From Pleurocapsales cyanobacterium LEGE 06147 (GTDB lineage Bacteria > Cyanobacteriota > Cyanobacteriia > Cyanobacteriales > Xenococcaceae), in NCBI GenBank assembly GCA_015207585.1, contig JADEWQ010000023.1, forward strand, positions 1 to 59,495: a DNA stretch of 59,495 bases. Reading direction: 5' to 3'. Below are positions 35,853-43,124 of the stretch, piece by piece. Made by a program: the position numbers and the translations under genes. Every line of letters begins with the position of its first letter. Position 1 is the stretch's first letter. The notes beneath the pieces are model-generated. The model saw only the letters and a list, made by a program, of their open reading frames with translations. It ran no database searches and was not told where the DNA came from.

Positions 35853-36193
35853 GTTTAGTTCTCCTCTATAAAAATAATTTAATCGATACCCGAGTTACCG
35901 CAGAGGTAACGTAGCTAAACACGAATGCCGCCAATATTCCTCATCCAATTCTTAGAAAAGTTGTTTACGCTTCCCTTTAAGAACCCAAACGCACACAATT
36001 ACTTTAGTTATGATGCGCTCATTAACTAATCCTGATAGAGGCATAAGGGGCAACGAGTAAAAGCTACATTGGGTTCTATTTCAAGCCACAAAAAGCTTTA
36101 ATATTTTTATCTAAGTAGCCAGAATTGCGAGAAAGACCTAAAATAAGCAACGTCGAGACGAGAAGATTGAAATCAATTAATCAATCTAGATCC
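35853..36193. other. Intergenic region between divergent genes
   Basis: A 341-bp gap. One small hairpin, GTTACC-gcaga-GGTAAC at 35894-35910, lies in the leader of the hemerythrin-like gene. No other feature was recognised. Confidence 0.4.
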
Positions 36194-36877
36194 ATGTTCG
36201 AGCAACAACCAGAGTCACTGCGAGAGAAGATTCAATCCCTGGCAGCCGAATCGGTGCGTCAAGGAGATCCATCGGGATGGTTTGAAACATTATATGCCCA
36301 AGCAGAGGGAGATTCTGCAAGAGTTCCGTGGGCAAAGAATTTAACTCATCCCTATTTTCAGGATTGGTTAGAACGCTATGCACCTCAAGGGAAGGGTAAA
36401 TCTGCTCTAGTCATTGGATGTGGATTGGGAGATGATGCCGAAGCATTAGCTCAACATGGGTTTCAGGTAACTGCGTTCGATATTTCCCCGACAGCGATCG
36501 CTTGGTGTCAGCAACGATTTCCCGACTCGTCAGTAAATTATCTAGTCGCCGATTTGTTTACCTTAGATCCTCGATGACATCGTCACTTCAATTTAGTATA
36601 TGAATGTCGCAACATTCAAGCCCTACCTCTAAGTGTAAGGTCAAAGGCAATTGGTGCGATCGCGCCTTTAGTGTCAGAAGGAGGAACTCTTGTGGTCATT
36701 ACTCGCTTCCGCGATACCGACACCGAATCCGACGGTCCTCCCTGGCCTTTGTCTGAGAAAGAACTAGCTCAGTTCGAGCGACTGGGATTACGGGAAATCC
36801 GCCGCGATGTCTTCCTAGAAACAGGCGATAACGTTACTATAAAACAGCTTCGGCTTGAATATCGCTTACAAAAGTAA
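36194..36877 (+). pseudogene. SAM-dependent methyltransferase with one in-frame TGA
   Basis: From ATG 36194 (MFEQQPESLREKIQ) the frame is open to a TGA at 36575-36577 and then continues in the same frame, without shift, to 36877. SAM-binding motif I is ALVIGCGLGDDAEALA; VTAFDISPTAIAWCQQRF follows. After the stop come HRHFNLVYECRNIQALPL and GGTLVVITRFRDTD. Homologues I recall have Trp at the TGA (DPSWHR-type block), so a single TGG to TGA change explains it. The family is thiopurine-methyltransferase-like. Inactive unless the stop is read through. Confidence 0.83.
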
Positions 36878-36879
36878 GC

Positions 36880-37070
36880 TTTGACACTCCCATCGACTGA
36901 GTCGAGGGATTCTCAGTTCAACGAGTCTCCGTTAGACATCAGGATTTCAAGGGGCTGTCATCTGAGGGAACCTCAGATGTATTGCATCATTACCCTTCTC
37001 AAAGTTGAATAAGAAGGGACTCTAGCTTGAGGAATTTCTAGAAGTTGAATTCACGCTCTACGGTAAAAAG
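36880..37070 (-). mobile_element. IS605-type right-end remnant without tnpB
   Basis: Positions 36880-36920 repeat the right-end foldback of the TnpB remnant at 24796-24836, with two mismatches. Beyond it are further hairpins: TCTGAGG/CCTCAGA around 36964-36980 and CCCTTCT/AGAAGGG around 36992-37020. It begins 3 bp after the methyltransferase stop. No TnpB residues could be read. Confidence 0.65.
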
Positions 37071-37103
37071 TTTTTGTTATCAAAGCGATCGCCCCTACAG
37101 TAA

Positions 37104-37631
37104 CTATTGTGATAAATCCTCAACTAACTTGGTCCAACTCCCATGAGAGAGAATAACTTTGATCTGTAGTTGCTGTTGGGGATCGCGCAATAACAATAAA
37201 TAATTATCTCCTACATTAGTTGCTGCTACTTGCGGATTAGTTAATTCGATAGTTTGATAAATAATTTCTGGCTTACTGACGCGAATGACGACCTGAGGTT
37301 GCAATTGCGGATAAATATATATCTGTTGCTTGGCAAGATCTAGTTCTAGTTTTTTGACCGTAATATTGAGTTCTCGCTCTGAGTCGGGTTTTTGCCAATA
37401 GATTGTAATTCCCCGTAGTTGGGGTTCTTTTAAAGAAAATTTTTCGTCAAATCGCTGTTGTTCCCAGTTAATTTCGTCCAGTTTACCGTTTGAGGGAATT
37501 AATCTTTGTTTCCAAACAATTTCTTTATCTTTTAGACTTGCCCACCACTGACCGATCTTAGCTAAATTATTAGCATTTTCGGGATTGCTCGTGTCTTGCT
37601 GCCAGATTATTTTAGTTTCCATCGCACCCAT
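37104..37631 (-). CDS. Conserved hypothetical protein
   Basis: The 175 residues are soluble, rich in Q, W and beta-prone segments (KIIWQQDTSNPENANNLAKI, RGITIYWQKPDSEREL, NYLLLLRDPQQQLQIKVIL). No signal peptide, membrane helix or known motif. The likely start is MGAMETKI or the second ATG three codons on. Similar proteins exist in other cyanobacteria as far as I recall. Function unknown. Confidence 0.6.
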   Translation of the reverse strand: MGAMETKIIWQQDTSNPENANNLAKIGQWWASLKDKEIVWKQRLIPSNGKLDEINWEQQRFDEKFSLKEPQLRGITIYWQKPDSERELNITVKKLELDLAKQQIYIYPQLQPQVVIRVSKPEIIYQTIELTNPQVAATNVGDNYLLLLRDPQQQLQIKVILSHGSWTKLVEDLSQ

Positions 37632-38273
37632 CTCATATAAGTCTACTATGCACGATCGACTAATTAATATTTTTGCAAAATTGGCATGCTCCCGTATAGT
37701 TTTAGTTATCTCGGCGGGAAGCCCCGCTCTATAGGCGCAGCCTTAGAGTCGGGACGGGGCTTTCCGGGTAGCGAAATGAATACGGACCCTGCAGGAACGC
37801 CCCGCCGCCACACAGCCCCTCCCGAGTCAGGGATTGATAAAATAGATACCGAATCTTTATAGAGCAGAGGCTTGAACTGTTGTACTATATGTTTGAGCGT
37901 GTCAATGGGTCGCTAGTTACCGAAGACCGGAAAACAAAAAACTAAATCTGGCAAGCACCTTGACAATCGAACATAGGGGGTTGCAACTAAGAAATAGTCT
38001 CGATTGGGGACTCGGTAGTTGCGTAAAATGTTCGCCGTGCAAAGGAAGCATTTTAAAAAACTCGTACCCGTGGACTGCGGGGAATGGAAACTGCCTGGGC
38101 AATCAGAGCGTCGGGGATATGGAGCAACTTGTTGTTTCATGTCTAGATGGTGGGTGAAAAACCAGAAATGGGAATAACCAGGAAAGCCATGCCGTGAGGT
38201 ATGGAAGCCCGCGCTGTACCATAGGTCAGCGTTGGGAGAGGTCACTTAAAACAGGACTTTGACCCAACTATCT
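37632..38273. other. Structured, IS-derived intergenic region before the aminotransferase
   Basis: A 642-bp gap, GC-richer than its flanks. It contains a GAAGCCCCG/CGGGGCTTT stem (37718-37764) and the IS-like remnant at 37900-38240. The promoter of the aminotransferase must lie in or beyond this inserted DNA. Confidence 0.5.
37900..38240 (+). mobile_element. Degenerate tnpB-type 3' end with right-end hairpins
   Basis: Frames with RGLQLRNSLDWGLG and VPVDCGEWKLPGQSE resemble the divergent C-terminal tails of some cyanobacterial TnpB proteins, but with frameshifts and no zinc ribbon. Two stems close the region: CCATGCC-gtga-GGTATGG (38187-38204) and CCCGCGCTG/CAGCGTTGGG (38208-38236), the style of an IS605 right end. 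An alternative is a structured RNA of another kind. Confidence 0.45.
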
Positions 38274-39734
38274 ATGAGCATCCTGGAACTGATAGAACAA
38301 AGACTTAGAGAAAACTTTGCGTTGCACGAACAATACCTGAACCCGCAGATGGTTAAGGTACTGAGAACGATTGGATACGATCGCCAGTATGTTAAGGCTG
38401 AAGGTCCATATTTATTTGACGATCGCGGTGAATGTTATCTGGATCTGCTCAGTGGCTTTGGAGTATTTGCGTTAGGGCGCAATCATCCTAAGATTATTCA
38501 AGCAATACAGGACGTTCTAACAGCAGAATTACCCAATCTCGTTCAACTGGATGCCTCTCTCTTAGCTGGGTTGCTGGCAGAGCGTCTCGTCGCGATCGCA
38601 CCTCCTGGATTGGAACGAGTCTTCTTCGCCAACTCTGGTACGGAAACTGTAGAAGCGGCAATCAAATTTAGTCGTTATGCAACTGGAAGAAGCAAGATTG
38701 TTTACTGTCAGGGGGGATACCACGGACTCACGCTGGGATCTTTATCGGCAACGGGCGAATCCCATTATCGTGAGGGATTTGGACCGTTTGTACCCGACTT
38801 CATCGAGATTCCCTTTGGCGAGCTCGCGGCACTGGAACAAGCCCTTGCAGGTAAAGACGTTGCTGCCTTCATTACCGAACCGATTCAGGGTCATGGGGTA
38901 CGGATTCCCGATGATACCTATCTACCCACGGCAGCAGCACTTTGTCGTCAGTATGGAACGTTGTTTATTGCCGATGAAGTACAGACTGGACTGGGGCGTA
39001 CGGGCAAATTCTGGGCGGTAGAACATTGGGCGGTAGAACCCGACATTTTATGTGTTGCCAAAGCTCTTTCTGGCGGTTTTGTCCCTGTGGGTGCCGTTCT
39101 CTGTCGCGGCTGGATCTTTGACAGAGTTTTTAACCGGATGGATCGCTCTGTCGTTCACGGCAATACTTTTGGCAAGAACAATCTGGCGATGGCTGCTGGT
39201 ATTGCAACCCTAGAGGCGATCGAGTCTGAAAAATTGGTAGAACGAGCGGCTTTTATGGGGCAACAGATCGTCACAGATCTCAAGCCACTAGTGAAACAGT
39301 ACGAGTATTTGAAGGAGGTGCGGGGACTGGGTATGATGATGGCACTGGAGTTTGCCGAGCCGAAGAGTTGGTCATTAAAGGCAGCGTGGAAGATGTTAGA
39401 GACAGCCAATAAAGGACTATTTTCGCAACTAATCGTTGTCCCCCTATTTACTCGTCATCGCATCTTGTCGCAGGTTTCCGGACATGGAATGAATGTGGTG
39501 AAGTTCATCCCGCCGCTGACCCTTACAGATAAAGACTGCCGCTGGATTGTTGAGGCAGTCCGTGATGTGGTAGCCGATGCCCACCGTGTTCCTGGAGCCG
39601 CCTGGGAATTCGGCAAAACCTTAGCAACTCAGGCCCTCCGTATGAAAACCGCGAGAGATACTCCTGTCCCACTGCAAGATTATCAAAATACTTACAGACG
39701 CGGGGACGCAGCGACAGGGGGACGCGGAGAATAG
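38274..39734 (+). CDS. Class III PLP aminotransferase
   Basis: Moves an amino group to a keto or aldehyde acceptor with pyridoxal phosphate. ATG 38274 gives 486 residues; a TTG at 38259 is less likely. Family blocks: LLSGFGVFALGRNHPKI, FFANSGTETVEAAIKF, CQGGYHGLTLGSL, FIADEVQTGLGRTG (Asp for the pyridine N) and CVAKALSGGFVPVGA (Schiff-base Lys), then VHGNTFGKNNLAMAAG. Similar to ornithine/acetylornithine-type enzymes, but neighbours suggest a lipid or secondary-metabolite role. The C-terminal 30 residues are polar and may be extra. Followed 50 bp later by a sulfotransferase. Confidence 0.9.
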   Translation: MSILELIEQRLRENFALHEQYLNPQMVKVLRTIGYDRQYVKAEGPYLFDDRGECYLDLLSGFGVFALGRNHPKIIQAIQDVLTAELPNLVQLDASLLAGLLAERLVAIAPPGLERVFFANSGTETVEAAIKFSRYATGRSKIVYCQGGYHGLTLGSLSATGESHYREGFGPFVPDFIEIPFGELAALEQALAGKDVAAFITEPIQGHGVRIPDDTYLPTAAALCRQYGTLFIADEVQTGLGRTGKFWAVEHWAVEPDILCVAKALSGGFVPVGAVLCRGWIFDRVFNRMDRSVVHGNTFGKNNLAMAAGIATLEAIESEKLVERAAFMGQQIVTDLKPLVKQYEYLKEVRGLGMMMALEFAEPKSWSLKAAWKMLETANKGLFSQLIVVPLFTRHRILSQVSGHGMNVVKFIPPLTLTDKDCRWIVEAVRDVVADAHRVPGAAWEFGKTLATQALRMKTARDTPVPLQDYQNTYRRGDAATGGRGE

Positions 39735-39783
39735 GGAAAACAAAAATCATCGGTAATCTTAAAGCAGGAAGGGAACATCTAGC

Positions 39784-40899
39784 ATGTCCAGTTTGTTTCA
39801 TCCGCTCTGCGGCAGCAATCTCAGTACTTTGTTGAGGTTGCTATTTACCAATGGAGCGATCGACCGCAAACACTTAACTCAAGCGAGTATCGCTCTAGGA
39901 TTTACCCTGGCGCGTTTGCCCTTTTCTACCTTAGAACGAGTGTTGATGGAATGGTTCTATGAATGTCAAACATCGATAAAATCGCCAATTTTTATTGTTG
40001 GCTATTGGCGTAGCGGCACTACCCATCTGCACAACCTTCTCAGCCAATCCGATGACTTCGGCTGCATCTCACCTTTAGCGGTAGGATTACCATGGGATCT
40101 TCTGGGCATCGTGCGGCTATTTCAACCCCTGATGGAGTTAGCCCTTCCTAGCGATCGCTATGTCGATAACGTCGCTGTCAAACCAGATTCGCCTCAGGAA
40201 GATTCGATCGCCCTGGCAAGTATGATTCCCCTTTCTTACTATCACGGTCTTTATTTTCCCAAACGCTTTAAATACCATTTCAATCGAGGCGTATTTTTCG
40301 ACGGATGCAGTACCCAAGAAATTGAGCGGTGGCGACGCTGGCACAGTCATCTGTTGAAAAAGGTCTCTATCCATCAGGGCGGCAAACAGTTGCTGATTAA
40401 GAATCCTGTATATACTGCTCACATTGCTAAATTACGAGCAATCTGGCAGGATGCAAAGTTTATTCATATTTATCGCAACCCTTATGTGGTGTTTCAATCG
40501 ACACGCCACTTTTTTACTCGACTTTTACCGGAACTTGCCCTACAAACTTACGAGAATTTATCAACCGATGAAATCGAGCGATCGATTTTGGAAAGCTATC
40601 CACGCATGATGAATTCTCTTTTGTTAGATAGTGTGGATTTACCTGCTGAAAGCTTCGTGGAAATTTGTTTTGAAGACCTCGAAACCGATCCATTCAAACA
40701 AATTCAAAAAATTTACCAACAGCTAGAACTTCCAGGATTTGAATCAGCACGTCCTCACTTCGAGAACTATCTAACTAGCCTTCAAGGATATCGGAAGAAT
40801 AATTATCCCTTCGAGCCAAAAGCCATCGAGCTGGTTGAATCCCACTGGATGTCATTCATTCAGCGATGGAAATACCGTTCGCCTCACTCGATAAACTGA
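39784..40899 (+). CDS. Sulfotransferase
   Basis: Transfers sulfate from PAPS to an acceptor. The 5'-phosphosulfate loop is FIVGYWRSGTTHLHNLL (residues 63-79) and the 3'-phosphate block is FIHIYRNPYVVFQSTRHFF. Length 371 fits the large sulfotransferase_3 type. The acceptor is unknown. It sits between an aminotransferase and a flippase-like membrane protein on the same strand, with 49 bp and 63 bp gaps, so the three look like one transcription unit. No signal peptide: cytoplasmic action. Confidence 0.9.
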   Translation: MSSLFHPLCGSNLSTLLRLLFTNGAIDRKHLTQASIALGFTLARLPFSTLERVLMEWFYECQTSIKSPIFIVGYWRSGTTHLHNLLSQSDDFGCISPLAVGLPWDLLGIVRLFQPLMELALPSDRYVDNVAVKPDSPQEDSIALASMIPLSYYHGLYFPKRFKYHFNRGVFFDGCSTQEIERWRRWHSHLLKKVSIHQGGKQLLIKNPVYTAHIAKLRAIWQDAKFIHIYRNPYVVFQSTRHFFTRLLPELALQTYENLSTDEIERSILESYPRMMNSLLLDSVDLPAESFVEICFEDLETDPFKQIQKIYQQLELPGFESARPHFENYLTSLQGYRKNNYPFEPKAIELVESHWMSFIQRWKYRSPHSIN

Positions 40900-40962
40900 T
40901 TTTTAGAAGAAAAAAAGCTCAACACTCAAAACTTTTTAGGGAAATTCCTCTATAGCAGTTGA

Positions 40963-41958
40963 ATGAAATATCTCAAATTTCTATTTCTGGGTCTTGGGTT
41001 TGTCTTACTCGGTTTAATTTTGCGCCGAACTGACCTCAAAGAGGTTTGGCACCATATCACCCTTGTCGGTTGGGTGGGAATGGCAGTTGTCATCATTTTT
41101 TATTTCCTAGAATTTCTCTCGGATGTTTGTGCTTGGCTGCTTACCTTTAAAAGTATTCCCATGACCCCGAAATGGACATCCCGTCTTTTTCTAATTTATA
41201 TGATAGGAGCAGCGTTCAATCGCGTTACTCCTTTAGCTTCTCTAGGAGGGGAAAGCTTTAAGGCAGTTATACTGAAAACTCACTATCAGATTGGCTATCA
41301 AGAAACGGGTGCTTCGATAATTCTCACCAAGACCTTAAACACGATGTCTCTGGTGTTATTTGTGGCGATCGGTTTTTTTCCTTTGTTGGTTTCCGAGCAG
41401 TTTTCTACTTCGTTTAAGACAGTCACGGGATTAAGCTTCGCCGTATTCGCCTTTTGTATCGCCATGTTTTTCCTAGTACAGCGATTTCGTTTAGCCTCCT
41501 GGATAACTTATCGGCTCGGACATTTTCCTTTAGGCGAGCGCTTGGCTAAACTCCTGCACAATCTCCGCAGTGTGGACGATCGCTTAGTCGAGTTTTATAC
41601 CAATCCATCGCGGATGAGAAATGGACTAATCGTGGCATTTCTCAATTGGCCGCTCGGTGCTTTGGAAATTTATTTTTTGATGCAGTTCCTCCGGCATCCC
41701 ATTACTCTTGCCGATGCCTGGCTATTAGATTCTGTAGCTCAATTAGTGCGTGCCGGAACGTTTTTCATTCCAGCTAACATCGGTACGTTAGAGGGGTCTT
41801 TGGTGGTGCTTGGTGCAGCCATTACAGGCAGTCCAGAGTTAGGGTTAACAATTTCTGTAATTCGGCGGTTCAAAGACATTCTTTGGATTTTGCTGGGTCT
41901 GCTGATCTGGTGGTTGTTTTCATTCAAGCCAACTTTACCAGATCGCTCCGCAAGGTAA
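40963..41958 (+). CDS. Flippase-like membrane protein (LPG synthase TM domain, UPF0104)
   Basis: The 331-residue protein has about eight membrane helices and the family blocks GAAFNRVTPLASLGGESFKAV and RAGTFFIPANIGTLEGSLVVLG. These are the membrane part of MprF/lysylphosphatidylglycerol synthase and of the UPF0104 family, thought to move lipids across the membrane. There is no soluble synthase domain. Third gene of the aminotransferase-sulfotransferase unit; it may flip a sulfated amino-lipid or related product (inference). Confidence 0.88.
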   Translation: MKYLKFLFLGLGFVLLGLILRRTDLKEVWHHITLVGWVGMAVVIIFYFLEFLSDVCAWLLTFKSIPMTPKWTSRLFLIYMIGAAFNRVTPLASLGGESFKAVILKTHYQIGYQETGASIILTKTLNTMSLVLFVAIGFFPLLVSEQFSTSFKTVTGLSFAVFAFCIAMFFLVQRFRLASWITYRLGHFPLGERLAKLLHNLRSVDDRLVEFYTNPSRMRNGLIVAFLNWPLGALEIYFLMQFLRHPITLADAWLLDSVAQLVRAGTFFIPANIGTLEGSLVVLGAAITGSPELGLTISVIRRFKDILWILLGLLIWWLFSFKPTLPDRSAR

Positions 41959-42030
41959 GTAGGGCTGTTTCATTTTTAGTTAAAGCAGAGAGGGAGTTAG
42001 GGAGCTAGGGAAATGGAGAGAATTTTTGAC

Positions 42031-42876
42031 TTAATTCAAGTAGCTACCAGTAAATACCTTCTCGGCAGGACCAGTCATGTAAACCCGTCCATCTAGTTCG
42101 GACCATTCGATTTGCAAACAACCTCCTGGTAACTCAACCGTGCAGAGGCGATCGCATTTATCATTAAGCACGCCAGCAACTACAGAAGCACAGGCTCCCG
42201 TGCCGCAAGCAAGAGTAATACCGGCTCCTCTCTCCCAAACCCGCATTTTCAAATAATTCGGTTTAATCACTTGAATAAACTCTGTATTGGTTCGCTGGGG
42301 AAAGGCGGGATGATGCTCGAATTGAGGACCTATTTTTGTTAAGAGAATAGCGTCAACATCTTCTACAAAAATAATACAGTGAGGATTGCCCATGCTCACA
42401 CAAGTAACAGACCAGGATTTGCCAGTGACTTGTAGGGGTTGAGCGATAACTTTTGCTTCTGGAGAACCAAGATTAGTGGGAATCTCTGAGGCTGTTAACT
42501 GGGGAGCGCCCATGTCTACAGTCACCTGACCGTCACTTTCCAGTTTTGGGGTAATTACTCCGGCCAGGGTGTGAATCTTATAAGATTTGTTAACTCGCTC
42601 CGTTCCTTCGAGATCGGCGATAAACTTGGCAAGACAGCGAATACCATTACCGCACATTTCTGGTTCGGAACCATCGGAATTATAGATTTTCATGGTGTAG
42701 TCAGTGCCATCTCGACCGGGAAGAGCAAAAATAACACCATCCGCGCCAATGCCAAAATGGCGATCGCACATTTTTACTGCTGTTTCTGGAGCGAGCGCGG
42801 GTTCGGGAGAATGACGGTTGTCAATCAGAATAAAATCGTTGCCCAATCCGTGATATTTGCTAAACTCGATTACCAT
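42031..42876 (-). CDS. dapF: Diaminopimelate epimerase
   Basis: Converts LL- to meso-diaminopimelate for lysine and peptidoglycan. The two catalytic cysteines are in [13 protein letters not shown] and [14 protein letters not shown]. The start [20 protein letters not shown] and the middle block [11 protein letters not shown] are standard. 281 residues. It is divergent from hfq with 35 bp between starts, an arrangement seen in other cyanobacteria. Confidence 0.96.
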
Positions 42877-42911
42877 CCCACTCTTAATTCTTTATCAATA
42901 GTCTTTTAATT

Positions 42912-43124
42912 ATGACGGAATTTGACACGGGTTTGCCTAGCGTTCGCCAAGTTCAAACCTATATCAAAGACCAACAAGAGGTTGAATTAAAACTTAGTAC
43001 AGACGACCTACTCATTGGTAAAATTATCTGGCAAGACTCTTACTGTCTCTGTTTAGTAGATCATTACAATCAGCCTACTATAATCTGGCGACAAGCTATT
43101 GTCTATCTCAAACAAAAAGCGTGA
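42912..43124 (+). CDS. hfq: RNA chaperone Hfq, cyanobacterial type
   Basis: The 70 residues contain the Sm1 part (LPSVRQVQTYIKDQQEVELKL) and Sm2 part (IIWRQAIVYLKQ). As in other cyanobacteria the YKHA motif is replaced (IWRQAI), and RNA affinity is weak; the protein is known to act with the pilus machinery and phototaxis in Synechocystis. It overlaps the dapF promoter region by divergent arrangement. Followed by a TnpB remnant. Confidence 0.92.
   Translation: MTEFDTGLPSVRQVQTYIKDQQEVELKLSTDDLLIGKIIWQDSYCLCLVDHYNQPTIIWRQAIVYLKQKA

Follow-up and report, generated by a model that had tools for sequence, protein, structure and literature searches.

A candidate hopanoid-tailoring cassette pairing an HpnO-like aminotransferase with a predicted sulfotransferase in a Pleurocapsales cyanobacterium

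Pleurocapsales cyanobacterium LEGE 06147 carries a three-gene cassette that probably acts as an operon for the tailoring of hopanoids, which are bacterial counterparts of sterols and molecular fossils used for early Earth history. The cassette lies in a 59,495-nucleotide stretch of its genome (contig JADEWQ010000023.1, positions 1 to 59,495 of the forward strand; hereafter, the window) and encodes a class III aminotransferase (AT), a sulfotransferase (ST) and a membrane protein resembling HpnL. We propose that AT is of the HpnO type, that ST would sulfate the resulting aminohopanoid and that the HpnL-like protein would move the product. Protein families, conserved motifs, gene order, co-occurrence across genomes and gene neighbourhoods were observed directly; from these we infer the substrates, the order of steps, the product and its transport. 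A hopanoid is the best reading of the lipid, since in relatives these genes have hopanoid genes as neighbours.

The three open reading frames (ORFs) all lie on the plus strand, at 38274..39734 (AT), 39784..40899 (ST) and 40963..41958 (HpnL-like), separated by 49 and 63 bases, as in the operon-like order described by the initial annotation. An ATG at 38274 is favoured as the AT start over an alternative TTG at 38259 because most relatives align from residue 4-6 (TTG numbering). Pfam scores far above the cut-offs for Aminotran_3 (PF00202, 323.9 bits; cut-off 30.5), Sulfotransfer_3 (PF13469, 110.1; 27) and LPG_synthase_TM (PF03706, 86.5; 33.4) agree with the gene types that annotation had named; they identify a class III aminotransferase, a PAPS (3'-phosphoadenosine-5'-phosphosulfate)-type sulfotransferase and a membrane protein with an LPG_synthase_TM domain. 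The three-gene set is confirmed as a real observation.

AT and ST keep close company across cyanobacteria. We searched an even sample of 291 cyanobacterial genomes (the class sample) and a sample of 60 genomes of relatives, both of which include the window's own genome. Class-sample thresholds were E<=1e-40 for ST, E<=1e-105 for AT and E<=1e-40 for the HpnL-like protein; because each search ranks no more than the top few candidates in a genome, copies that are weak or broken could escape detection. ST proteins at least 58% identical to the window ST (the AT-type) are termed ST-A, those at 50-53% ST-B, and those at 30-37% remote relatives. ST occurs in 32 class genomes, 15 with ST-A, 8 more with ST-B and 9 with a remote relative. 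A ninth ST-B copy lies beside ST-A in genome G239, where the two sulfotransferases stand about 1.4 kb apart beside AT (locus L109). AT is found in 15 class genomes, exactly those with ST-A, and in all seven ST-A genomes of the relatives sample (own included). Over both samples it is present in 21 of 21 ST-A genomes and adjoins ST in 18. A scan of public genomes yielded 20 ST loci, including two copies from one Hyella isolate, with AT directly upstream in 19 and an HpnL-like gene downstream in 8. The full order, whose conservation the initial annotation had proposed to survey, is kept in Microcystis and in a Xenococcaceae metagenome-assembled genome. Negative AT-ST gaps are artefacts of alignments extending beyond the stop codon of AT and were disregarded. 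The AT-ST pairing is not chance, and the outcome that the initial annotation named as refuting its reading, no shared company in other genomes, does not hold. The tie runs one way, since genome G048 (locus L152) holds an AT relative (60% identity) for which no ST was found; this AT gene lies next to genes for a sigma factor and a DNA methyltransferase, and could possibly encode an HpnO acting without sulfation.

The neighbourhoods of the pair point to hopanoids. At Nodosilinea, Leptolyngbya and related loci, AT and ST are embedded among hopanoid genes named by NCBIfam, including HpnH (554 bits; cut-off 225) and HpnB (577; 379), together with a squalene-synthase-like (SQS) protein below its cut-off (78; 287). 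The fullest order, SHC-HpnB-HpnG-RND-ABC-ST-AT-SQS-HpnH, where SHC is squalene-hopene cyclase, occurs at L111, L114, L117 and L118. TIGR01194-type ATP-binding cassette (ABC) exporters and AcrB-type resistance-nodulation-division (RND) relatives are regular members of this Nodosilinea-type cluster, and may stand in place of HpnN as hopanoid exporters. Overall, 13 of 23 class loci, from 5 of 13 genera, have an hpn gene (SHC, HpnH, HpnB or HpnG-like) close to ST. As a low-identity control we drew on ten genomes with ST at 30-37% (nine of the class sample and G022); no hpn core gene was seen at the seven loci fetched (L064-L066, L128-L131). The difference in linkage gives a Fisher p of 0.010, a figure that leaves out L054 (ST 33%), where HpnH is matched over 93 residues at a distance of 1.2 kb and whose inclusion would weaken the result. 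The initial annotation had suggested looking for acyl or polyketide synthase (PKS) genes nearby; with hpn genes as the neighbours in relatives instead, we rejected an acyl or PKS pathway.

Presence across genomes follows the same pattern. SHC was detected in 23 of 23 class genomes with ST-A or ST-B, vs a background of 146/291 (hypergeometric 5e-8 by genome and 6e-4 over 13 genera, the latter being fairer because genomes are not independent), and in 5 of the 9 with remote relatives. The relatives sample gives 10 of 10 ST-A or ST-B genomes vs a background of 40/60, and HpnH occurs in 20 of the 23 class genomes vs 137/291. The window's genome carries SHC on contig C65 and HpnH on C200, with HpnG-like and HpnB genes paired on C119. 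In G315 and G320, whose genus label is also that of the Microcystis-like carriers, the SHC reading frame is intact, at 645 and 648 residues.

AT is HpnO-like, and by reciprocal best match orthologous to the hpn-cluster aminotransferase of Streptomyces, with which the comparison was made. Besides its PF00202 score, AT has a lysine aligned with one in PigE, encoded by the AAA codon at 39060..39062 (plus strand; Lys268 numbered from the TTG), which we take to be the residue that binds pyridoxal phosphate. Its best relatives among 72,556 plasmid records are two Streptomyces enzymes (51% identity). One, from S. fungicidicus, ends an annotated cluster of hpnC, hpnD, hpnE, shc, hpnH, ispG and dxs; tblastn shows the same genes clustered around the second. 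Searched back against the window's genome, the S. fungicidicus enzyme finds AT first (53%, 496 bits; next 173). These two hpn-cluster enzymes are 51-53% identical to AT; no other enzyme found exceeds about 42%. No AT match above cut-off, and no HpnO model, appeared among the best 25 of 69 NCBIfam matches. The assignment rests on identities and the reciprocal search because long branches spoil the AT tree (19 of 27 distinct AT proteins and one from G048; eight near-duplicate or partial sequences excluded). Passages in the literature state that HpnO is required to convert ribosylhopane to aminobacteriohopanetriol and is present in the Streptomyces cluster (PMC12583986, PMC9228677), and that it is difficult to distinguish from other aminotransferases of its family (PMC12583986). 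AT matches HpnO in being a class III aminotransferase whose best plasmid-borne relative is the enzyme of that cluster, and differs in being paired here with a sulfotransferase in 21 of the 22 genomes where AT was found.

Two stretches at or near the ends of the gene recur on other contigs. The AT 3' end and following gap (39665-39761) match another contig at 76%, and the C-terminus of the window AT is about 25 residues longer than that of most relatives; together these suggest a repeat insertion. Just upstream, the 44 bases at 38204-38247 have 87% identical copies on two other contigs. They recall insertion-sequence ends, by resemblance only, and have no Rfam match.

Family and motifs predict that ST is a PAPS-dependent sulfotransferase, and its phylogenetic profile and neighbourhoods make it a candidate hopanoid sulfotransferase. 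Across 26 aligned ST proteins, invariant residues fall in three plus-strand motifs. GYWRSGTT (40000..40023; G73, R76-T80) and IYRNPYVVFQS (40468..40500; I229, R231, P233, V236, S239) are what we take to be the 5'-phosphosulfate-binding loop and the 3'-phosphate-binding motif of PAPS. The conserved acidic motif SPQED (40189..40203; P137, E139) is a candidate catalytic region. NCBIfam returned no match at all for ST. The two best Foldseek results were the stand-alone enzymes STF1 and STF9 (TM 0.45-0.52); the structure model is weak, so we use it only as agreement with the fold assignment. These Sulfotransfer_3 enzymes rank with the top PDB matches in sequence as well as in fold, and ST keeps both of their PAPS-binding motifs, but it is only 14-16% identical to them and its family is found in hopanoid gene clusters. 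No such context for a sulfotransferase turned up in the open-licence literature. A tree of 57 ST proteins (sequences with an in-frame stop excluded) resolves ST-A as a branch of 32 sequences with support 100/99 and ST-B as one of 10 with support 100/96; L013 (genome G031) and the Azospirillum sequences are placed with weaker support.

The third protein may serve as a hopanoid flippase or transporter. Among NCBIfam models HpnL fits it best (TIGR03476, 160.7 bits), over positions 1-314 of 318, and we name it HpnL-like only because this score is below the curated cut-off. It occurs in 3 of the 291 class genomes, all three among the 15 with ST-A. It resembles HpnL over nearly its whole length and sits with HpnO-like and ST genes; it differs in its score and in not lying beside hpn core genes at the loci examined. 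The initial annotation had read it as an MprF-type membrane domain without the synthase. The domain and the absent synthase hold, for Pfam finds only the PF03706 transmembrane region, which is shared with MprF/lysylphosphatidylglycerol synthase. A remnant of MprF was rejected on the missing synthase domain and the HpnL match.

The ST family extends to Azospirillum, whose plasmids give the best matches among plasmid records (A. brasilense, A. argentinense and strain TSH58, 47-49% identity). All seven Azospirillum plasmid loci with ST at 47% or above carry SHC and HpnH within 9 kb of ST, at distances of about 4 kb and about 7 kb respectively. An MMPL transporter stands in between at both loci scanned (L140, L143), and at L140 an HpnG-like phosphorylase follows SHC. 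The 25-kb stretches around these seven loci contain no AT match. More distant ST relatives (34-41%) occur in crtI clusters of A. oryzae, A. ramasamyi and Palleronia and in a polyketide synthase cluster of Gloeothece. Judging by the crtI and hopanoid settings, the wider ST family often accompanies terpenoid pathways, and the branch that holds the window ST accompanies hopanoids. At L138, L139 and L142 (A. oryzae, A. ramasamyi and Palleronia), the ST relatives end crtI-crtI-acyltransferase-glycosyltransferase runs that might make sulfated C30 carotenoid glycosides.

In the pathway we propose, HpnH would convert diploptene to adenosylhopane and the HpnG-like phosphorylase would yield ribosylhopane. 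AT would then aminate the open-chain aldehyde of ribosylhopane to give 35-aminobacteriohopanetriol, and ST, with PAPS as donor, would place sulfate on a hydroxyl group (or on the amine) of this molecule, producing a sulfated, probably zwitterionic aminohopanoid. In the few lineages with the gene, the HpnL-like protein would carry the hopanoid across the membrane or out of it; in Nodosilinea, the ABC and RND proteins could perhaps do so. For ST-B and the Azospirillum ST, which occur where searches gave no AT, the substrate would be a hopanoid lacking the amino group. Known hopanoid head groups are of polyol, amino, aminoacyl, sugar and cyclitol types. The sulfated amino-lipid that the initial annotation had suggested as the likely output is thus supported in direction, with a hopanoid as the proposed lipid.

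Alternatively, AT could be HpnO while ST sulfates another hopanoid of the same cell, bacteriohopanetetrol or a composite hopanoid, and not the aminotriol. ST-B near HpnH, HpnG-like or SHC genes in genomes where no AT was found (L119, L120, L121, L124, L126, L062) and the Azospirillum loci without an AT match would fit such an activity. The presence of AT in every ST-A genome of both samples, usually next to ST, argues against it for this branch, and we consider it unlikely. AT and ST could also make a non-hopanoid sulfated amine or small molecule, with the hopanoid genes mere neighbours, since ST relatives occur in the crtI-acyltransferase-glycosyltransferase and PKS clusters, and among AT relatives PigE and a Methylocystis enzyme, the latter encoded next to a PKS, work in other contexts. 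This is less probable still: SHC accompanies ST-A and ST-B in 23 of 23 genomes vs 5 of 9 for the 30-37% relatives, AT is nearest to the Streptomyces hpn aminotransferase, and hpn linkage is seen independently in two phyla. Finally, the sulfotransferase fold might perform some other hopanoid reaction, or sulfate might be a leaving group for elimination as in curacin and olefin-synthase systems, to whose domains ST shows weak similarity (4gbm from curacin, 4gox from the Synechococcus olefin synthase), but the ten neighbouring window proteins scanned include no thioesterase or PKS and the best structural matches are the stand-alone STF1 and STF9, making this the least credible option.

Several observations weigh against a sulfated aminohopanoid as the product of AT and ST. 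The sequence of ST does not reveal its substrate, its structure model is weak, with a pLDDT (predicted local distance difference test) of 59.9, and the AT tree, dominated by long branches, was discarded. AT and ST are 1.7 kb apart in G005 and on different contigs in G009 and G016. The window contains no hpn gene and is one of 10 among the 23 class loci where none lies close to ST (several contigs are short), and 7 of the 8 hpn-linked ST-A loci of the class sample share one genus label, g126. SHC is in pieces and below cut-off in G036, and three of the 23 ST-A and ST-B class genomes (G320, G251 and G166) gave no HpnH match. Both the HpnG-like neighbours (77-91 bits; cut-off 187) and the HpnL-like protein (cut-off 195.65) miss their curated cut-offs. 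According to passages of one source, reports of cyanobacterial hopanoids most often concern bacteriohopanetetrol (BHT), bacteriohopanepentol and BHT cyclitol ether; aminotriol is not listed with them (PMC5642901). The record of A. brasilense Sp 7 has ST beside SHC, and the available text of a study of this strain reports only adenosylhopane and explains the lack of Rohmer degradation products by that compound (PMC12583986). This result counts against an abundant sulfated product in Sp 7, unless the method missed such a product.

Elsewhere in the window, a methyltransferase-like ORF at 36125-36877 (150 residues, matching part of thiopurine-methyltransferase-type profiles) stops early and is followed by a second short ORF, maybe as a broken gene. 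An Rfam scan of 36000-43000 gave no match.

We found no report of a sulfated hopanoid in the open-licence literature, outside which most subscription journals fall, and in passages of several of the open-licence papers naming both hopanoid and sulfotransferase the two terms are unconnected. The cyanobacterial hopanoid module, as set out in the available part of one paper, consists of HpnA, HpnB, HpnF, HpnH and a phosphorylase, and lists neither AT nor ST (PMC5862535). A search for extra genes beside alphaproteobacterial hpn clusters names none beyond HpnA, B, L and M, and the word 'sulfotransferase' is absent from the text of that paper as available (PMC12583986). In most of the cyanobacteria-dominated Antarctic mats of one study aminotriol is reported as the second hopanoid, with no source assigned in the sections at hand (PMC9232131).

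Sulfation of sterols and bile acids in animals alters how these lipids sit in the membrane. Like the sterol sulfotransferases, ST would sulfate a polycyclic triterpenoid-type lipid; those are other enzymes acting on eukaryotic sterols, and we liken them by reaction type, not by kinship. Diatoms, for instance, are described as producing sterol sulfates in passages of one study (PMC8172173).

On balance we lean, by a modest degree, towards a broader view in which sulfated hopanoids, zwitterionic where HpnO is present, are overlooked membrane lipids of cyanobacteria, including bloom-forming Microcystis, and of Azospirillum. They would be made by a dedicated family of hopanoid sulfotransferases, one branch paired with HpnO and another without it, and may have been missed since standard work-ups neither recover nor seek sulfate esters. 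If true, a sulfated hopanoid would add a new type to the known membrane lipids, arising as a tailoring variant of a known pathway, and its charged sulfate would alter how the hopanoid sits in the membrane. A so far unassigned gene in hpn clusters would gain a role. In Microcystis there would be a hopanoid dependent on both sulfur and nitrogen, with an exact mass to seek in stored extracts.

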